Part shown: positions 16,982 to 51,970 of the stretch, piece after piece
Layout of the letters: every line of letters starts with the position of its first letter
Position numbering within the stretch: the first letter of the stretch is position 1
NCBI GenBank assembly: GCA_029207755.1
Contig: JARCOQ010000006.1
Span: 9,952,513 to 10,016,512, forward strand
Origin: Chamaea fasciata
Taxonomy: Eukaryota; Chordata; Aves; Passeriformes; Sylviidae
Length of the DNA stretch: 64,000 nt
Reading direction: 5' to 3'
Translations under genes and position numbers: made by a program
The notes under the pieces: generated by a model
Seen by the model: only the letters and a program-made list of their open reading frames with translations
What the model was told of the DNA's origin: nothing
Database searches by the model: none

Positions 16982-17431
16982 TGGTGCCTTAAGTTTCAGC
17001 TTTCATGTTTTTCAGATTCTGTGCTGCCTACGGATGTAGTGCTGAGCTTCATATTAAGTGTTGGTAAGCTCTCTTCACAGAGTAGGGAGACAAAACAAAT
17101 CCTTTTCCTGCTGGAGACCAGGGACAATTTTCAGGCCCAAAAGCACAAACAACGGTGGACTGAAGGGAGAAACAAGAAGGATGGGACCTCACAACCTGAA
17201 GCTGTAACTGGACAATTAAACCCCAATATGCAAATGAACCAAAACTTACAAAAGTGTGAGACCTCGTGACCGGTTGTCCATTTTGTGACTATTTTGGGTC
17301 CACCTTGGGTGTAGCCCTGGCCAGGCTCTTGTGCTGCCCAAGATGTGTCCTCAGAGGCCTTTTAATCAATATCTACTTTATTCCCTAGCTCTGCCCAGTC
17401 TCTGTTTCAGGTCAGCCTTCTCAAGGCATCA
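16982..17431 (+). mobile_element. solo ERV LTR, family A (copy 1)
   Basis: A 450-bp LTR bounded by TGGTGCCT and AGGCATCA, an imperfect inverted terminal repeat with canonical TG...CA ends. It aligns along its full length with 35830-36288, which fixes the boundaries. A CCAAT box followed by the octamer ATGCAAAT lies at 17224-17235. The position equivalent to the TATA box in the other copy reads TTACAAAAG, so the TATA box appears mutated. No internal proviral sequence flanks it, so it is a solo LTR. I see no clean target-site duplication. Orientation is inferred from the primer-binding site next to copy 2. Confidence 0.85.
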
Positions 17432-18218
17432 AAAGCACCATGGGACTGCACCCTTGGAGTGCAGTTAGGGTTGTGCAGTGATTTACAGGCATCCTCAAGT
17501 ACCCGCATGGCCAAGAGTGTGTATGGAAAGAAATGTGGCAGAAAACCTTGGACAGACAGTAAAAGTACTGTTAATAACATCTTTGGGGAATGACAGTACC
17601 TCATCTGTCTGTGAAGTTTCTAGCACACAATGGCAGCCAAAAAAAAAAAAAAAAAGAAAAATAAAATTAAAAGATTAGCAGGGTTCTGGAACAGAGGAGG
17701 CTGGCAAGGGAAACATCCCCAATCTGAAAAAGTTCAGACATGGAAATGAGGTGTGAGCCCTGCCATCAATTTGAAGTGTGGCTGATGGAACACAGTGAGC
17801 GTGCTCGTGCTCGGGTGAAGGCAGCAGAGACAGCAGCAGATGATTCACAGCCACATGGCTCTCATCCTATTAAATGGAAATGAAGCATCCACAGCCCAGG
17901 CGGCAGCTCAGGGGAGGATTGTGGCTGTGGCCATGAAATAGCAACGGGTGAGGGATTTTCCAATTATTCAAACAACAGTGAGTGAGAAGGGCTGCCCTCC
18001 AGCTCAGAGATGCCATGAGTGCTGTGGCCACAGTCACACTTCCAGAGGAGTTATTTACAAAGCTTGATAAGCTCTCCTCAGTTCTGTGTTGGAACCCTGG
18101 GCACAGAGAATTTTAGACTCTCTGTGCTAGCAGGCACTAACCTGCAAGAAAACACTACATTTGACCTGAGGCCTTGGAAGAGGCTTCCAAGATTGAATGA
18201 TAGCACCAGGATTATGGG
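17432..18218. other. unique DNA between two LTRs
   Basis: A poly-A run lies at about 17640-17657. No retroviral gene is recognised between the LTRs at 16982 and 18219. They belong to different families, so this is not the interior of one provirus. Confidence 0.45.
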
Positions 18219-19270: not shown

Positions 19271-22200
19271 CATCTTTGGATCAGGCCCTCAATGAAACCA
19301 TCTGTTCCCATGCATCTTCACAATGGGAAAAACAGCTCCAGAGGAAGTTTGAGACCATTGATCCTCTTTGCCTTTTGTTTTTCATCCTTCACCATCTGCC
19401 CTCCCTTCTTCAAGTGAGTAGTAAGAGGTTTTTAGGTGCCCTAGAAAGAGAGGACAGAGGGTGTGGAAGCTGTGGACATGGATCGCTCACCATTCCTACC
19501 AGGATGAGTAAACCTGTGATGGCATTGGAGCAATGAGTGTGTCCTAAAGCTATTCCTAAGGTGACAATTTCTTAACAGGAGTATGGATATCAACACACAA
19601 AGGTAAATGCAGGTATTGCAAACCCACCTTTTAGTTTTCCTCATCCTGCCAGGTACTGAGCAGTGCTGAGTCAGTTTTCTATGAATTTTGTTCTCTTCTC
19701 TCTTCTATAGGAAGTTGCAGCCAAAGCACAAGTACCTTCAATCAACAAAAAATAGCATCTTGTGCAGAAATAGGAGAGCTAAACAAAATCAAACCAAATG
19801 GGATTGAGAAAACATATGGAAAGAAAACACCTCCCACAAAGCTTGACCATCCTCAGCTCAAAATTCATATAATCAGGAGAAATACTGAGATTCCCTTTTC
19901 ACAGCTTGTTCTACTCGTCTGTCTTAGGTGTGGCAAAAGGAATTGCTGAGGATTTGTTGCTGCTCTTTCCCTCTATGTCTGTTCTGCCACCTTTACTGAT
20001 TGGATGATACATTGGATTTTTTTTTTTTTTTCCAAAAGGAAACAGTTCTATTTAAACTCAAGCCTTGACTTGAAGCCATCAGAAACCATTCAAAGGGTGA
20101 AAAGATTTTCAGTCTTTTCTTTAAATTCACCTTCACAGACCATGTATGTCTGCCCTGCCAGGCCATCAGACAGCATGTAATCTTCACAGGGAGACACAGA
20201 TATTGAAATAAAGGTACTGAAATAGCATTTCTGTAGCTTTTTGTATAACCCATACAGTCAATGAGAAAACATCCCTCCTATTTGAAATCAATGTCTAAGG
20301 ATGGGATCAATGGTACTTCCACAGGTGCCAAAATCCTTTTCCATTGACTGCGGAGAGCCCAGACAATGACCTTGGGTCAGGCACTGAGCTTTTAGATGCA
20401 TCTACATAAATGAGTAGCCTTTGCTGTAAATTCTCAAGGCTTTCTGCTGCTTTCAGTAGTCAAAGGAGAGCTTTCCCTTCCTCTGATACTCTCAGCAGGA
20501 CAGCCTGTGAATCAATCCACATACTGCTTCACAGACAAAAATGATAATTTTTTTCTATATTCCTGGAGCAGGAGGGGCTGTAAATGTTGTCCTCTTTGCT
20601 TTTTTCCCCTTCAAGCTGCAAAAGGTAAGGCAGTGAGATCTTAGCAGAGAGGAAATGAAGTTCAAGAATACTCAGTAGAATGTCCTGTCATGTCATGTGG
20701 GAGTGATGCAAAGTTAAACTCTCCCCTGTGGTGGAGATAAAAATTTGACAGGTTCTGGTACGGATGAACATCCTGTAGCCAGGGACATCATTTTCAAGTA
20801 TTGTGCTGCTCCAGGTCATTCTTAAATCACACTGGCTGTTGGAATGATTGAGGTGCATATTGTGAACTCAGACACTCGTGGTTATTCTCACAGACAGAAA
20901 TAATGTTACCTTTTTTTTTTTTCTGCATTAGTGGTCAAAAAGTAAGTAAGTAAGTTAGGATTGTGATAAGAAAATGTGATTTGTGGGTTGGATTTCACTT
21001 TTGGCTCTTTTACACTTACCTGGGGTGGTGCCTAAAGTGTCAGTAGAACTGTAGGATTTCCACAGTTCCCCTTAATGTGGAAAAAAACTCAGACAAAGCA
21101 TTGCAAGCACGTCACAGAAAAAAAAAATCTGACTGGGGTTCCATTGCTGCGGAGAACAGGAGTCTTATCCAGTGCCTCAGATTAGTGTGACAGAGCCCTT
21201 GAGCACCTAATTTCAGAAGCAATCAGATCCTTTCCAGCCTAGTGAGTGAAGAAAAAAATATTTTTGCAGCCTGGTTGGTTGAAAAAGTGGATGAAAGATT
21301 TTTTAAGGTGCTTTTAGTGTATACTCAAACCTGGCTCAGATCTGTACAAGCCACCTCTGAGCCCCTCTGTCCCCCCAGTACACTAGTTTTCTGTTTACTG
21401 TGATCTTCTCTTATGTCTCCCAACCTGCTCTCCACTGCTGTGCATTGAAATAACCTTTCTTTAAGGCTGATAATAAAATGAATGTGAGTGTAACAATGCA
21501 AAGTACGTTGTATTAACTCCCCTAAATTCTCCTTGGCGACTTTCTGCAGTTAACTTGAAAAGCACAACAAAGTTAATGTGCTGTCAACACTCAGCTCTGA
21601 AAATCCAGCTGGGATCTAAAGATAGCAGATCAAAACCTGTCACTGGAATGGGGGCACAGTGCTGCTGCTGAACAAGCTGTCCTAATATTTACAGGTTGTT
21701 TTAAACAACAATAATGTACTGATTCCCCTGCTGATACAATCCCTGGCACCGAGGGTGCATTGCAAATATCCTGGATATTGGCCCAGTGTCTCCATCTGAT
21801 ATAAAGCTTCTGCTGGTGGCAGAATATTGGAAGATGTATGGCCTTCAACTGCTGGCTGTGGCAGGAAGATGCATGAAGCCGTGTGAGATAAGAAGGTCAC
21901 AGGCAGAGCTCACTGGATGAATGCTTCCTTGAGGATCTTTGCTGGCTGATATAAGTCAGTTGTCCCAAAGGGAAAAAGAGCATCTACAAAAGTCACAGAC
22001 GTAAGTGCCTTCAGAACAAAACATCACACAGAAAGTCTTTGATACAAGAGTGTTTACATTCCATGATTGGGGTTTGGGATTTTAATTTACTGTTCTGGTC
22101 AGGCTAAAAAAGGGCTGATGGAGGTTTAAAAGCTTGCAAAGCATTCCTTTACCTTCCCTTTAATAAAATATCTAAACGTATTTATTGTGGCTTCTATCTA

Positions 22201-32409: not shown

Positions 32410-34908
32410 TCAAATTTCAGAAAAGGTGGCTGTGAAGTACCGTGAATTCACTGGATAATGTCAGTCACCATTTCATGTGGTGACAGTCACTATTTCAGGT
32501 GACATTTTATTTGCTCAATTCTAATATTTCCTTGCCGTTTGTGAGTGGGATTAACAACAATGGGATTTCAAGTGAAATAAATGAAACTGTTACAGGAGGG
32601 AGCACCTGGGAGAACAAAATAAGACAAGTTGGCAAACGCACTCTTGTGCTTTACCTTTTCACCTCTGGAGACTTGACTTCCAATGTCTTTTAGAGCCCAG
32701 CTGGGAAGAGGAGACAGAAGAAAAAATGGAAAATTAGAGGCTGCTGGCAAAGTTTTTGTATAATATGCATCCCTTGAGTAGTATTTGCTCATAAAGAACA
32801 ATGACATCAGGAACCTCTGAGCCTGGTTCCCATGTGTCTTTCCAATTGCAACGTGACCCTGATGGTCACTGATGGGGGAGAGAGGAGGATCAGGTTCTCT
32901 GTACACAGTTCCTTGTGAAGTGCCAAGGCAGGACAGAGTGCATCAAAGAGGATTATGTCTGACACAGCTCTTTTTTAAAGGGATGTTTAGTTTCCCAGAG
33001 AAGTGGGAATCTTGCCTAATCCATAATAACCCAAATCGGTTTGAAATACGTCCTTCTAAACGAGTTTGGCCATTTAGTTTCTCACTGACAAAATCCCTTG
33101 ATTTTCTCGGGGTGTAGAAAAAGATTAGTGCATAAAAGACCATCTGTCTCCATGCTGCTGACAGGCTAAAAGATGGTCTTTTTCCTCTCTGTGGAGCAGG
33201 TTGCAACCCTCCCAATCTGGAGGCAGCGAGTGTTCGTTATCTCTGTGAAACACCAGCCTGCAAGAAGAATTTCCTTTCCCTCGATTTGCTGTCCTGGGAT
33301 AATCCCCTGGCTGCTCCATGGGCTGACCTGTGTGTGGGCTCCTGGAGCTCCCCACACCCAGGGACACGGGCTCATCCATCAGGTATTGATGGTTTGGCTC
33401 CAGGATCGGACATAATCGCGCCTTTCTACCAGGCAGACAAGCCTTCCATCAGGAAAGCTTTCCATCCCGATAAAGTCTTTTGGGAAAGAAAGGAAAGTTT
33501 TCCACCTGTCAGAGGTAGCAAACAGACATTATTTCCTGTGTTGTGGCCAGTGCTGTGCAGTGAGAAGCAAAGAACTGTCTGAGTCTCATTATTGCTCACA
33601 CCAGTGCAGCATTTGGGGCCTGGGGCTTTTCCATGTTGTGTGCTTTGCAAACTCAAAATAATAACCACTTCTTTCCTGGGGGATTGTTGCATGAATAGGT
33701 AAGGCAGGCAAAGAAAATAAAGACTTGTACTCCTGTTTCAGGGGTGGAAAACAGGCATGGAGAGACTGAGCAATCTGCCCAGAATACCAGGGGTGTAAGG
33801 TGAGAGGTGGGAGACATTCAAGTCTTTTCCCAATTTATTCACTGTTTCTCTGCAACTTTCCATTTGGGTTTGTTCACATTCTGTCACCCCAGGTATGGGC
33901 TGACACACGAAATATAACCACATTTGATAGTTTTAAGCATTTACAGTAGATAGGTACAGGAAGCATAATCCACTGTCATGGGTCACTCTGTCCTTGCTTT
34001 TAGGTGTCTCGTAAAAAATATAGTTACTTCCCCCTTACATCTCACAGATGCAGTGGGCTAGTTTAATATCAAGTTAATATTTAATAGTTTTCAAGATGTT
34101 ATGCTGTCCTCAGGGAAAGATGCTTCCTGAATGTAAAATGTAATCTCATATTTGGTGGATCTGAGTTTGGCACATGTCATTGGATCAGCTGCTGCTGTTA
34201 CCAGATAGGCTTATCTAGATCCTGACAGAGCTAAAAAAGCTAAAAAAATGCATGTGTATATTTTTTGGCTTGTGGTCTGTGTATCCTACCAGCCACCTTC
34301 AGTTCCTTCATTCTGGGGGTCTTTTATTTTTCTTGGAAAGGAGATTCAGTTTCTTGCCTTCTCCCCTCCCTGCATGGTTTTCAGTAATCAGGATTCTCAT
34401 TTCTCCATCCATAAAGCATGGATAAAAAGATAGGGCTGCCTGCAGTGTGAAACTGAAACTCCTGGCACCAAAACACAAGCCACTGTAGCACTGACATACC
34501 TGGTGGGCCACTGAACACAAGAGGGGGCTTACAATAGCTTTTTATTGGTCCATGTGTTTGAAGGAAAAGGAAAGCTTCAGTTCTTAAATCATTCAATGTA
34601 AATTTTTTTTTAACTAGCAAAAAGAAGACACAACCAGGAGAGAAGTGGAAAGCCAGGAGAAATGTTAATGTCCCTTCTAAATAGAAGAAGGACAGAGACT
34701 CCAGTTCTGTGGTTAAAAAAAAAAAAATTAAAAATATATATATATATATTTAATCAGAAGATTCCCAGAGTTGACAAAGCTTGTAAGAAAATCTACCTCA
34801 AATCCTGTTTCCTGAGAGAAGGTAGTTTTATCTCTCACCAGAGAATTTCCAGGCTCTCCAAGAGAGAAGTTTAATAATGTTTTCTGTTTCCACCATGCAT
34901 GTAACACA
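32410..34908. other. unique non-coding DNA
   Basis: A diverged tandem duplication of about 20 bp lies at 32462-32502 (CAGTCACCATTTCATGTGGTGA, then CAGTCACTATTTCAGGTGA). An A/T tract with (AT)n lies at about 34717-34752. No gene is recognised. Confidence 0.45.
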
Positions 34909-35003: not shown

Positions 35004-35400
35004 TGAGAGCTCCCTTCACAGCAGCTGCCTCAGTTCAGGGCTATGCCACGTCTGTGATGTGTTTGGCAAAGCACCAGAGTCACAGGGTTGTGGTCTTGGT
35101 GCTTTTCCCTACAACTGCTCAAGCTCAAACTTGCCATCAAGGTTTTCCAGCTCTTTGGCTATTTCTGCACAGTTTGCCAGTAACAGGAGGCTGTGAGGAT
35201 GACTGTGCTGCATCAGATAAAAAGTCCTCCCTGTCCAGCATCCTTTTTCAGACAGAAATCCACTCTGGATGCCTGGGAAGAGCTTGGGAGCAGGCATGCA
35301 TGTCATCCTGCTTCCTCAGAGGGCTCGTCCACTCTGTGAGCTTGTGAGAAGTGGTGTTTAGCTGTCCTCAACATGAGACACTTTTCCCCATGAATCTCTT
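35004..35400. other. unique DNA between two CR1 copies
   Basis: About 400 bp without recognisable repeat or gene. Confidence 0.4.
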
Positions 35401-35829
35401 TAGAATCACCACCTTTGGAAAGGACCTCCACAATCATTGAGTCCAGCTTTTGACAGAACACCAGCTTGTCACCCAGAGCAGAGCACTGAGTGCCATGTCC
35501 AGCCATTCCTTGAGCACCGCCAGGGATGGGGACTCCAGCACCTCCCTGATCAGCCCATTCTAGTGCCTGACCATCCTTTCAGTGAAAAAATTCTATCTGT
35601 GGTTTAACCTGAATCTCTCCTGGTACAGATTGAGGCCTTTTCCTCTTACTGGCTACCTGGAGTAGAGGGTGATCCTCACTTGGCTACAGCCTTATCTCAG
35701 GGAGTTGTAGAGTGGCAGTCTCCCCCAAGCTTCCTTTTCTCCAGGCTAAACAAACCCAGCTCCCTTCAGCTACTCCTGCTGCTTCAGACCCTTCTTCATC
35801 TCTGTTGTCTTCTCTGAACATGTTCCAGC
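35401..35829 (-). mobile_element. CR1 LINE, 3' half of a copy split by an LTR
   Basis: Antisense CR1: 'CCAGCTTTTGACAGAACACC', 'GTGCCATGTCCAGCCATTCC', 'CTCCAGGCTAAACAAACCCA', ending 'CTGAACATGTTCCAGC'. The CR1 sequence breaks off at the first base of the LTR at 35830. It resumes at about 36392 with 'CCCTCAAGTTCTTTCTTGTC', the expected next block. The CR1 was therefore in place before the LTR arrived. Confidence 0.92.
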
Positions 35830-36288
35830 TGATGCCTCAAGTTTCAGCTTTCATGTTTTTCAGATTCTGTGCTGCCTAGGGGTGCAGTTCTGAGCCTCAT
35901 ATTAAGTGTTGGTAAGCTCTCTTCACAGAGTAGGTAGACAAAACAAATCCTTTTTCTGCTGAAGACCAAAGACAACAGGTACAAGTTTCAGGCCCAAAAG
36001 CACAAACAGCAGTGGGCTGAAGAGAGAAAAATAAGAAGGATGGTACTTCATAATCTGAAACTGTAATTGTAAAATTAACTCCAATATGCAAATGAATGAA
36101 AACTTATAAAAGTGTGAGACCTCGTGGCCAGTTGTCCAGTTTGTGATCATTTTGGACCATCTTGGGTGTATTCCTGGCCAGGCTCTTGTCCTGCTCACAG
36201 TGTGTCCTCAAAGGCCTTTTTATAAATATCTACTTTATTCTCTAGCTCTGTTGAGTCTCTGTTCCAGATCAGCCTTCCCAAGGCATCA
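35830..36288 (+). mobile_element. ERV LTR, family A (copy 2), nested in CR1
   Basis: A 459-bp LTR with a perfect 8-bp inverted terminal repeat, TGATGCCT at 35830 and AGGCATCA at 36281-36288. It is homologous over its length to 16982-17431, with a small insertion near 35977 absent from copy 1. Promoter elements are in order: CCAAT (36081), octamer ATGCAAAT (36086-36093), and TTATAAAAG TATA box (36104-36112). It is followed directly by a tRNA-Arg primer-binding site that extends into a near-complete tRNA copy. This sets the orientation and makes the structure more than a plain solo LTR. No gag, pol or env is present. Confidence 0.9.
36104..36112 (+). promoter_or_regulatory. LTR TATA box
   Basis: TTATAAAAG lies 11 bp downstream of an octamer motif and a CCAAT box within the LTR, in the standard order of a retroviral U3 promoter. 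The aligned site in the copy at 16982 is TTACAAAAG, so only this copy keeps a consensus TATA box. Present-day activity is not shown. Confidence 0.6.
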
Positions 36289-36293
36289 GTTTC

Positions 36294-36361
36294 TGGCAGC
36301 CCAGATGGGACTTGAACCCACAATCCCTGGCTTAGGAGGCCAATGCCTTATCCATTAGGCC
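36294..36361 (-). pseudogene. near-full-length tRNA-Arg(CCU) copy fused to LTR (extended primer-binding site)
   Basis: Five bases after the LTR, TGGCAGCCCAGATGGGAC is the complement of the 3' end of tRNA-Arg, including its CCA. This is the expected 18-nt primer-binding site. The match continues to 36361. On the minus strand it gives residues 9-76 of a tRNA with anticodon CCT (36334-36336 on the plus strand), a D-loop AATGGATAA, and T-loop TTCAAGT. Compared from memory with vertebrate tRNA-Arg(CCU), I count two differences: A for G at position 57, explainable as CpG decay, and C for G at 71. It is not a functional tRNA gene. The first eight residues are missing, half the acceptor stem is absent, and nuclear tRNA genes do not encode CCA. 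It is best read as a DNA copy of the primer tRNA. Confidence 0.88.
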
Positions 36362-36391
36362 TTAATGAAGAAGAACTTCAGGCACCACAGT
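36362..36391. other. 30-bp unassigned junction
   Basis: TTAATGAAGAAGAACTTCAG and the next ten bases lie between the end of the tRNA copy and the point where CR1 sequence clearly resumes. They match neither the missing 5' end of the tRNA nor, clearly, the CR1. ACTTCAGGCACC may be a diverged repeat of the left CR1 flank TTCCAGC, but no clean target-site duplication can be read. Confidence 0.4.
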
Positions 36392-36635
36392 CCCTCAAGT
36401 TCTTTCTTGTCCTGAGGGGCCCAGAACTGGACAAAGCACTCAAAGTGTGACCTCAGCAGTGTCCAGCACAGGGGATGGGCACTGCCCTGGTCCTGAGGCT
36501 ACACCACTGCTGACACAGGCCAGGTGCCATTAGTCACCTGGGCACAGCTGGCACATGTTGGACCACTGTCAACCAGCACTCCCATGTCCTTTCCTTCCAG
36601 GCCACTTTCCAACCACTCTGCCCCAAGGGTTTAGT
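36392..36635 (-). mobile_element. CR1 LINE, 5'-ward half of the split copy
   Basis: It continues the antisense CR1 of 35401-35829: 'GTCCTGAGGGGCCCAGAACT', 'GGGCACTGCCCTGGTCCTGA', 'CACCTGGGCACAGCTGGCAC' and 'CCAACCACTCTGCCCCAAGG'. In element order this is upstream of the other half. The end near 36635 is approximate. Confidence 0.9.
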
Positions 36636-39054
36636 TTATCTCTGCACTGATGTAAATTAGGGTTGGCCCATTACCTCCTGTGCTCACTTAGGCTGGGTAC
36701 TTCACAATAACTTTTTAAATGCTTATTTAAACGTGTGGAAGAGGCTTTCTGCTGTGCAGAGGATATGGATTTTAAAAAAAGACTTTGTCTCATCCTGAGA
36801 AAGACTTGCTGCTCTACAGAGAAGCTAATCCAGATTCCTGCAGCCAGGAAGCTGAGATGGTGAGTTTTAAATGCCAGCTGAAAAGATTGTGACATGCGTA
36901 GATTTCAATTATCACACTTGGATTGTTTGCCTGATTCATAACCTCTTTACTAGGAAGGTTTCAAGCCCACTGCAGACACTTTTGCTGCCCACTGTATATC
37001 TGCAAGCTTCTTGCACTGCCATATTCTCCCAGGGTTCCACCACTCTTATTTCAAAAGGTGAATTTTGTGATTGTTGTGGAGCTGGCAGAAGCAGAGTAAC
37101 GTATGTGCAAACTTGTGTCTCTGCATCCATCCCAGATGGGCAGCTGGAGCTCTAGCATGGTCCTGCCTTCCTTGCCAGCAGATTAGGAAAGGATTAGGAA
37201 AGAGAAGGATACCAAGGGGAAGCATCATTCCATGTCTGTACCGCAGCAATGCTCCAGCTGGCATCGGCTTCCGTTTGCTCTGTGCTTTACATGGGGGATC
37301 AACGAGGGAGACGCACAGAGAGAAACTGGGAAGGCCTGGAAGTAGAAGGAAAAATTTCTGGCACTTTTAATTCTTTTATTTTCAGCATAGTGCGAGTCTG
37401 CAAGACAACTGCAGAACACATGGGGAGGATGGATTAGGGATTTGGGCACTGCCCAGCATTTGTGTTTCTGCTCCACCACAGACTCCCCATGGCCTTGGGC
37501 AAGGTATTAATGGCCAGGTGTGGAGCAGTAAGGTGTGAACACACCAAGCACAGAAACTCTGTGAGGGGGACCACCGGGTGAGTTTTGGTGTCTCCACAGA
37601 CACTACAAACCAAGATAGAGACACAGCTTGTGACTGGGCAGGGTGAAGGCTGGTGTGGACCTCTCAAAGCTGGCTACTTTAAGCTAACATGGCATAAATA
37701 TGGATATTTCTACACCAGACTCCACTGCAAGGCACAAGGTAGACCAGAGGATGGAAACAGATCACTAGATCATGAGTTATGGTCATGAAAATTAGTTCTA
37801 CAGCCCAGATGTGTGCTGAATGGAGCACTCACACATTCCCTATCCCATGGCACAGATCTGATGCCACCCAGTCTCCAGTGTCCCATAAATGCAGCCACTG
37901 TCTTCACCACCAGGATGTTCCAGCCCACCTCTGAAAACTCTGTCAGCATCCAGGCAGAAACTCAATATCCACAGGGATGGAGGGAAAGCATTCATGACTA
38001 AACGTGCTGCAAAATATAAAATTATTGGAATTCTGAGGTTATGGGCCTGGAGGTTAGCACAGATATGAGAGAGTTCCTACTAATGTCCTTGAATTCTCTT
38101 TTTTTTTTAAGGCTGAAGTCCCTTTCCAAAGAACTCAGTTCTTTGTGGAAGTAAAGCTGTAGTGTCAGGTAACAGCAAGTGGCATATTTTTAACACACTA
38201 CACTGAACGTGTTAAAGTCATGGAATTTGTCTGAGGGTTAGAGTGAAAAGGTAACTTCCCTGAATATGTGCTTCCTGGGAAAAATCTTCAGGATGTAAGA
38301 CAGTGAGTCATCTCCTAGAGCAGAGGAGAAACACAAAGCATGAAACTCTTAAAGCTCATCAGAGAGCAGGGCACGTGCACCAGGCAAGGTATTACACAAA
38401 TGGACATGAGATGAGCTAAAAGGTCATCTTTCCCTCCATTTTAAGTATGGATCCAGAAGGAAACATGCAAACAGCAAGGCCACCTCCTGCTACCAATTAT
38501 TCAGAAAGGTAAGAGTCCAGGCTGTGCCACAGAGAACCACTTAGGCCTTCTCATCAAAATGTGGCTCTGGCAAAGTGAATGCTGTGGGAGGTCAAATGCA
38601 TTTCCACTCAGGGCAGTATCAGTTCCAAGAGCCTGAATGAAGGATTAACAAAGATGACTTGACATTTACCTGGATTCATGTGCAGCTAATAGGGCTGATA
38701 AAAGTGCTCCATGAATAATGCATATTGGGTAATTTACAGATGGAAAGATTCATCTTCTTCCATAAGCAGAAGGGATGGGGGAGGGTGGAACATCAGACAG
38801 AAAAGATTGGCCTTTAGATCCATAATATCCTTATCAGTGGAAAGAGAGGTCAAGGTTTCCTGGTTTAGTATCCAAAGTGCTTCCATTAAGGAAGTAGTGT
38901 TAATTATATAGAGGGTCACAGCCCCATCTTTATTTTGAGGGTTTTTTTTTTTTGGTGGGGGGGGAGGGGGAAGGTGGGATTTAGGGTAATTAGGAAAATG
39001 CATTAATTGCAGTTGATTTCTTTGGGGGTGGTACATGGAGGGGCTGAACACTGT
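36636..39054. other. unique non-coding DNA
   Basis: No gene or dispersed repeat is recognised. A T-run followed by a G-rich block lies at 38942-38978, with runs of 8, 5 and 3 G and G-quadruplex potential. Confidence 0.45.

Positions 39055-51848: not shown

Positions 51849-51970
<122 letters not shown>

Follow-up and report, generated by a model that had tools for sequence, protein, structure and literature searches.

A long terminal repeat joined to an antisense copy of a tRNA-Arg primer in a songbird genome: a candidate germline fossil of failed reverse transcription

Introduction

Plus-strand strong-stop synthesis usually stops at m1A58 of the primer tRNA. An initial annotation of the DNA described here assumed this stop, and its chemistry is backed by a review that places m1A58 in all retroviral primer tRNAs, tRNA-Arg included (PMC13191261). 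Synthesis can run further. Primer tRNA transcribed in vitro, and therefore unmodified, is copied over its whole length; when TRMT6 is mutated, the enzyme extends beyond A58, and HIV-1 is less infectious in such cells (PMC13191261). By the same account, the products that function are only those with an end at residue 58, 55 or 54 (PMC13191261). A second modified position lies near the other end of the molecule: in human tRNA-Arg-CCT-1 to -4, position 9 is modified by TRMT10A (PMC7293042, Table 2). The TRMT10A-dependent error rate at this position is 0.079 for CCT-2, 0.076 for CCT-1, 0.044 for CCT-3 and 0.014 for CCT-4, and without TRMT10A it is 0.001 to 0.003 in the four human isodecoders (PMC7293042).

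Integration leaves its own record in the target. Among 15 XMRV integration sites, 13 carried a duplication of 4 bp and one a duplication of 5 bp; the remaining site, with a deleted U3 end, carried one of 273 bp (PMC2857682). Coordinated joining of the two viral ends yields such short duplications (PMC2857682).

Here we describe a locus within a 64-kb stretch of DNA from Chamaea fasciata (the window, to which all coordinates refer), where a complete LTR is followed by an antisense tRNA-Arg copy extending from the CCA end to residue 9. We delimit the insert from the LINE that it interrupts, and weigh the ways in which it may have arisen.

Results

The insert comprises 558 bases (35830-36387), begins with TG, ends with CA, and consists in order of an LTR, a spacer, an antisense tRNA copy and a tail. 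The LTR (LTR_A; 35830..36288, plus strand) is complete, running from TGATGCCT to AAGGCATCA. The spacer, GTTTC (36289..36293, plus strand), leads from the LTR end to the position of the primer-binding site; the usual gap at this place is 2 bases, and here it is 5. The tRNA-Arg(CCU) copy (36294..36361, minus strand) runs antisense to the LTR from residue 76, at the CCA end, to residue 9, and its first 18 nt (36294-36311) are the equivalent of the primer-binding site. Next come TTA (36362..36364), three bases for which sequence comparison found no source and which presumably mark a switch point, and a tail (36365..36387, minus strand) that is likely an inverted copy of the U3 start of the LTR, as judged from alignment and a scan of 14-mers, and that ends in AACTTCAGGCACCA. 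Altogether, 99 inserted bases lie beyond the right end of LTR_A.

A second copy of the LTR (LTR_B; 16982..17431, plus strand), which carries no tRNA sequence, served as the comparison copy. Pairwise alignment gave 85.7% identity, with 53 substitutions over 448 aligned bases, and the existence of this copy establishes the LTR as a real repeat. TG..CA ends together with a second copy in the genome are as expected of a class I (gamma-like) ERV LTR. No tRNA-like sequence aligned behind LTR_B, the one other copy within the 64-kb window, and no clear target duplication was found around it (2/4 bases). At 17423-17440 the end of LTR_B, AAGGCATCA, is immediately followed by AAAGCACCA, which looks like either an inverted U3 tip or a brief tandem repetition of the end of the LTR; a matching target duplication behind AAAGCACCA was not found (0/4). 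Two further stretches of the window recall the start of the same LTR: TGGTGCCTAAAGTGTCAG (21026-21051), either a relic or a chance likeness, and TGGTGCCAGGAGTTTCAGTTTCA (34445-34470, minus strand), whose score against the U3 start is likewise high (14). Elsewhere, a perfect (AAAG) array of 30.5 copies (51849-51970) is likely to be a variable microsatellite. Pfam searches with 10 window ORFs, out of 40 listed ones of at least 100 aa, returned no families.

The tRNA copy was recognised by Rfam. RF00005 matched the minus strand at 36361-36305 with 41.3 bits (gathering score 29; E = 2.6e-5 for the 64-kb window), the single Rfam match in the window at gathering thresholds, and the D, anticodon and T arms were all matched (model positions 9-63). 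The anticodon is CCU, and bases past residue 9 cease to fit a tRNA. Sequence and Rfam thus bear out the initial annotation, which had described a complete LTR followed after 5 nt by an unbroken tRNA match from the CCA to residue 9. As expected of a read-through strong-stop product, the tRNA 3′ end (CCA) stands behind the LTR in primer polarity, the match is unbroken, and copying passed residue 58 and continued down to residue 9. A58, C32 and G9 were all copied without error. The copy presumably differs from human tRNA-Arg(CCU) at residues 57 and 71.

ARAGORN found no complete tRNA gene, as expected, since the copy lacks residues 1-8. Folded alone as RNA, the 68 nt did no better than shuffles (z 0.50) and formed no cloverleaf. 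This is unsurprising because the 5′ acceptor strand is missing, and the fold provides no support either. A protein search with the antisense frame over the LTR/tRNA join gave six matches among nine candidates (E 0.0099 to 4.5); the tRNA-encoded part, MGLEPTIPGLGGQCLIH, was present in all six, and the LTR part was clearly alike in none. The same search with the opposite-strand frame over the join gave no matches. Within the tRNA copy (36294-36361, minus strand) a near-consensus Pol III B box is kept, the sole match in the window to the B-box pattern tried, and the A box lacks its initial residue, U8.

The right border was placed from the host element, a LINE that we take to be of CR1 type. Left of the insert lies the C-terminal part of its reverse transcriptase frame (35703..35829, minus strand), recognised from matches of the peptide translated across the joined flanks, with its extent taken from the profile match. 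On the right the LINE resumes in frame (36392..36627, minus strand), as indicated by the joined-flank peptide, alignment and profile. Among 23 candidates for the joined-flank peptide, 21 matched at E <= 0.01, some of them named reverse transcriptase; an organism was named for 10 of these 21, and all ten were birds (Limosa, Grus, Hirundo and Pitangus among the genera). The join, KELEG followed by LEHVQRR, aligned without a gap with 9 of the 21 LINE proteins.

We scored 81 right cuts (36340-36420), with the left edge fixed at 35829, against a profile of 20 LINE proteins. Resumption at 36392 was the best of the 81 with 104.4 bits, followed by 36389 with 100.1 bits; these values carry a small bias toward 36392, as the profile proteins had been found with a query already joined there. 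The cut directly behind the tRNA copy reached 89.1 bits. DNA comparison with another LINE copy in the window gave scores of 36 for 36392, 34 for 36388 and 19 for 36362.

The best cut removes 562 bases, that is, the 558 bases from TG to CA and 4 bases of duplication. CAGC (35826..35829) on the left and CAGT (36388..36391) on the right form a 4-base near-duplication around the insert, identical at 3/4 bases, and 4 bases is the length of target duplication expected of a class I (gamma-like) ERV LTR. The flanks of the LTR alone match at 0/4 bases, as do the flanks of the LTR plus tRNA. The feature had been annotated as ending at 36361; this end did not hold, for the insert reaches 36387, 26 bases further, where it is bounded by the near-duplication. 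Since the 562-base cut best restores the LINE and CAGC/CAGT lie on its two sides, the LTR, the tRNA copy and the capping tail were most likely inserted together by integrase, as a single unit.

Two known element types were tried for the locus and rejected. For a solo LTR, the target duplication is absent directly at the right end of the LTR (0/4). For a TRIM, with two direct LTRs and a primer site and polypurine tract between them, a second direct LTR copy was not found; the longest direct repeat among those listed in 35300-36900 measured 13 nt.

The tail was then compared with both ends of the LTR. AACTTCAGGCACCA matched the inverted U3 start at 12/14 bases in LTR_A and 13/14 in LTR_B, and the U5 end at 8/14 and 9/14, respectively. 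Only 4 of the 127,972 14-mers in the window reach 12/14, namely both LTR starts, the one at 21026-21039 and the one at this border, which sits exactly where the LINE had placed it. In end-anchored alignment of all 26 bases behind the tRNA copy, U3 scored 10 (LTR_A) and 12 (LTR_B), and U5 scored 6 with either copy. Full shuffles reached the U3 scores in 0 and 0 of 2000 cases and the U5 scores in 5 and 5 of 2000. Random 26-mers of the window reached the U3 score in 0 (LTR_A) and 2 (LTR_B) of 2000 cases and the U5 score in 8 and 7 of 2000; the best random 26-mer scored 22 and was therefore probably drawn from an LTR itself.

These comparisons bear differently on the tip and on the bases before it. 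When the 8-base tip common to both LTR ends was held fixed, shuffles of the other 18 bases reached the U3 score in 58/2000 cases for LTR_A and 103/2000 for LTR_B. An unanchored local match to the inverted strand of LTR_A was reached by 142 and 68 of 2000 shuffles, which is not significant; for LTR_B the match was reached by 3 and 3 of 2000 (two scorings in each case). With the strict scheme, the same score of 18 is also reached inside LTR_A, by an interior stretch of its plus strand, and two one-base gaps have to be opened for the longer U3 alignment. A repeat search with a 9-base seed did not recover the pair of tail and U3. Taken together, these comparisons make the presence of an LTR-type tip at the right border a well-supported reading and favour inverted U3 over U5 as its probable source; support for assigning the bases past the shared 8-base tip to U3 is moderate.

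Wider searches covered viral and prokaryote collections, which are weak for bird DNA, and found no second LTR-tRNA chimera. Exact patterns for the LTR end plus primer site, the LTR core and a long tRNA stretch had 0 matches in viral contigs, and a 35-nt tRNA stretch had 0 matches in prokaryote genome contigs; both results say little on birds. The 18-nt primer site alone matched viral contigs twice. We take both matches to be chance, because neither locus has a tRNA gene and both lie in GC-rich sequence unlike the LTR. At the level of titles and abstract openings, the open-licence PMC papers listed for the terms used yielded no description of a genomic LTR with a near-complete copy of its primer tRNA.

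Discussion

We propose that reverse transcription once failed and left the 558-base stretch in the germline as a fossil. In this view the primer tRNA was read through to residue 9, the stalled end switched to U3 DNA, and a second end usable by integrase was gained. We put the probability of this reading at about 0.6. We observe the order and polarity of the parts, the CCA and the termination at residue 9, as well as a tip of LTR type on the right and a cut that restores the frame and comes with a 4-base near-duplication; from these observations we infer the steps as follows. Plus-strand strong-stop DNA would have passed position 58, probably on an undermodified primer tRNA, and synthesis would have stalled at G9 after one base had been placed opposite it. 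The stalled 3′ end would have been unfit for normal second-strand transfer. Freed, it may have moved, with the extra TTA, to the U3 start of a plus strand, be it in its own molecule or in a second one, and copied this template to its end. Flanked by a U3 end on either side, the resulting DNA could then have been inserted into the LINE by integrase.

This course keeps a large part of the initial annotation and alters the rest. Read-through by plus-strand synthesis, as originally proposed, accounts for the orientation of the tRNA copy, for its CCA, for its position so close to the LTR and for its termination at G9. Passage over m1A58 itself, however, has to be set against an undermodified primer, which is at least as likely because A58, C32 and G9 were copied free of error, even though m1A58 is described for every retroviral primer tRNA (PMC13191261). 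Residue 32 is, we assume, methylated in tRNA-Arg(CCU). Correct reading of residues 58 and 32 suggests a primer without those marks, and correct bypass is also possible. The annotation further held that the enzyme was stopped by m1G9. Position 9 is indeed modified in human tRNA-Arg-CCT, and the end at residue 9 is compatible with such a stop. Finally, the LTR-tRNA DNA was said to have entered the genome; the tRNA copy most likely did integrate with the LTR, but not bare, as the insert ends in an inverted-U3-like tip with a target near-duplication.

The tip matters because integrase would be expected to use a bare tRNA end poorly: the XMRV site with a deleted U3 end gave a duplication of 273 bp and not of 4 bp. 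An inverted-U3-like tip would remove this difficulty. Folding of the insert's single strand gave no advantage over shuffles (z 0.28) and left the two ends unpaired in the minimum-energy fold, so that a snap-back within one molecule gains no support. As a general salvage route, once plus-strand synthesis has run over the primer tRNA and the second transfer has failed, the stalled end might copy a U3 tip. The short U3-LTR-tRNA-U3 DNA so formed would be accepted by integrase and flanked by an ordinary 4-base duplication. One would then expect more chimeras of this kind in bird genomes, and they could spread antisense tRNA sequence, with its B box, to places behind LTRs. We offer this route tentatively, at a little less than even odds.

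The main rival, which we consider unlikely, takes the long tRNA-Arg match to be normal leader of the LTR family, an extreme primer over-extension fixed after one old capture, in a copy from which the interior and almost the entire 3′ LTR have been deleted. Lentiviruses and spumaviruses do have over-extension sequences beside their primer sites (PMC13191261), and a deleted provirus would fit TG..CA ends and a 4-base near-duplication as well. AATGAAGAAGAA is, in addition, purine-rich and like a polypurine tract; a polypurine tract in the tail was considered and rejected, a U3 start behind such a tract not being found. A provirus deleted in this way nevertheless predicts a U5 tip at the right, where the inverted U3 start fits better (12-13/14 vs 8-9/14). 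It also leaves the D, anticodon and T arms kept in a leader that need not keep them, and a second copy was not found in the viral and prokaryote collections, weak as these are for bird DNA. Less likely again is a variant of normal polarity, in which the read-through plus-strand DNA switched to minus-strand DNA near the 3′ LTR end and the right end is a U5 tip. No inversion is needed here, and the last 8 bases hardly discriminate between the two LTR ends (inverted U3 with 7/8 and 8/8, U5 with 7/8 and 7/8). Yet this variant does not say where most of the 26-base tail came from: of the 6 bases that precede the tip, 1 or 2 agree with U5 and 5 with inverted U3, and the end-anchored score is 6 as against 10 and 12.

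Two other explanations divide the locus between separate events. The tRNA may have stayed on the minus strand and been copied when plus-strand synthesis was finished off at the 3′ LTR; the two LTRs would afterwards have recombined, so that one LTR with the tRNA copy remained. The LTR-tRNA join would then look identical, and poor tRNA removal is known under APOBEC3G, where it leads to aberrant viral DNA ends (PMC5165236). This course calls for the recombination as a second event while still requiring a capping step, and we regard it as very improbable. Least probable of all is that the neighbours met by chance, a tRNA retropseudogene or tRNA-headed SINE already lying in the LINE and the LTR landing beside it. 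It is true that tRNA pseudogenes are common in vertebrates. An LTR-only insertion would, however, carry its own duplication, and the bases left and right of the LTR match at 0/4; the tRNA piece likewise has no borders of its own, with no duplication at the LTR/tRNA borders. Against chance also stand the CCA at 5 nt from the LTR in primer polarity and the single cut that best restores the LINE by removing LTR, tRNA and tail together.

If our reading of failed reverse transcription is true, a germline copy would mean that dead-end read-through DNA formed in nature and could still integrate, and the inverted-U3-like cap suggests how such DNA came by an end that integrase can use. Should there be further copies, the distance that each reaches into the tRNA would document the tRNA modifications at which ancient reverse transcriptases came to a halt.

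The locus has its closest likeness in plus-strand strong-stop read-through products (product P1 and others beyond m1A58), where U3-R-U5 is likewise followed by a primer tRNA copy running from the CCA inward past residue 58. The HIV-1 read-through products come from in vitro work and from cells mutant for TRMT6, and of these products just the shorter are usable; here, in contrast, the copy ends at G9, carries an inverted-U3-like cap and is genomic (PMC13191261). With the over-extension sequences of lentiviruses and spumaviruses it shares tRNA-matching bases past the 18-nt site. Those sequences, however, adjoin the primer site in the leader and accommodate extension to residue 55, whereas here 50 further bases follow, to residue 9 (PMC13191261). 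The TG..CA LTR, the tRNA-Arg primer and the 4-base duplication are those of a class I ERV solo LTR, and human ERV-Goku, of group I, combines tRNA-Arg with 4 bp (PMC11905727). A solo LTR, unlike this insert, sits directly between its duplications, the insert having 99 more bases on the right. At 2-LTR circle junctions with insertions of tRNA or primer-site sequence, tRNA-derived bases are left at an LTR end, as they are here. These circles differ in being unintegrated, in occurring in infected cells and in the shortness of their insertions. The read-through product itself is thus already known, and the chimeric structure of this locus is real and unusual.
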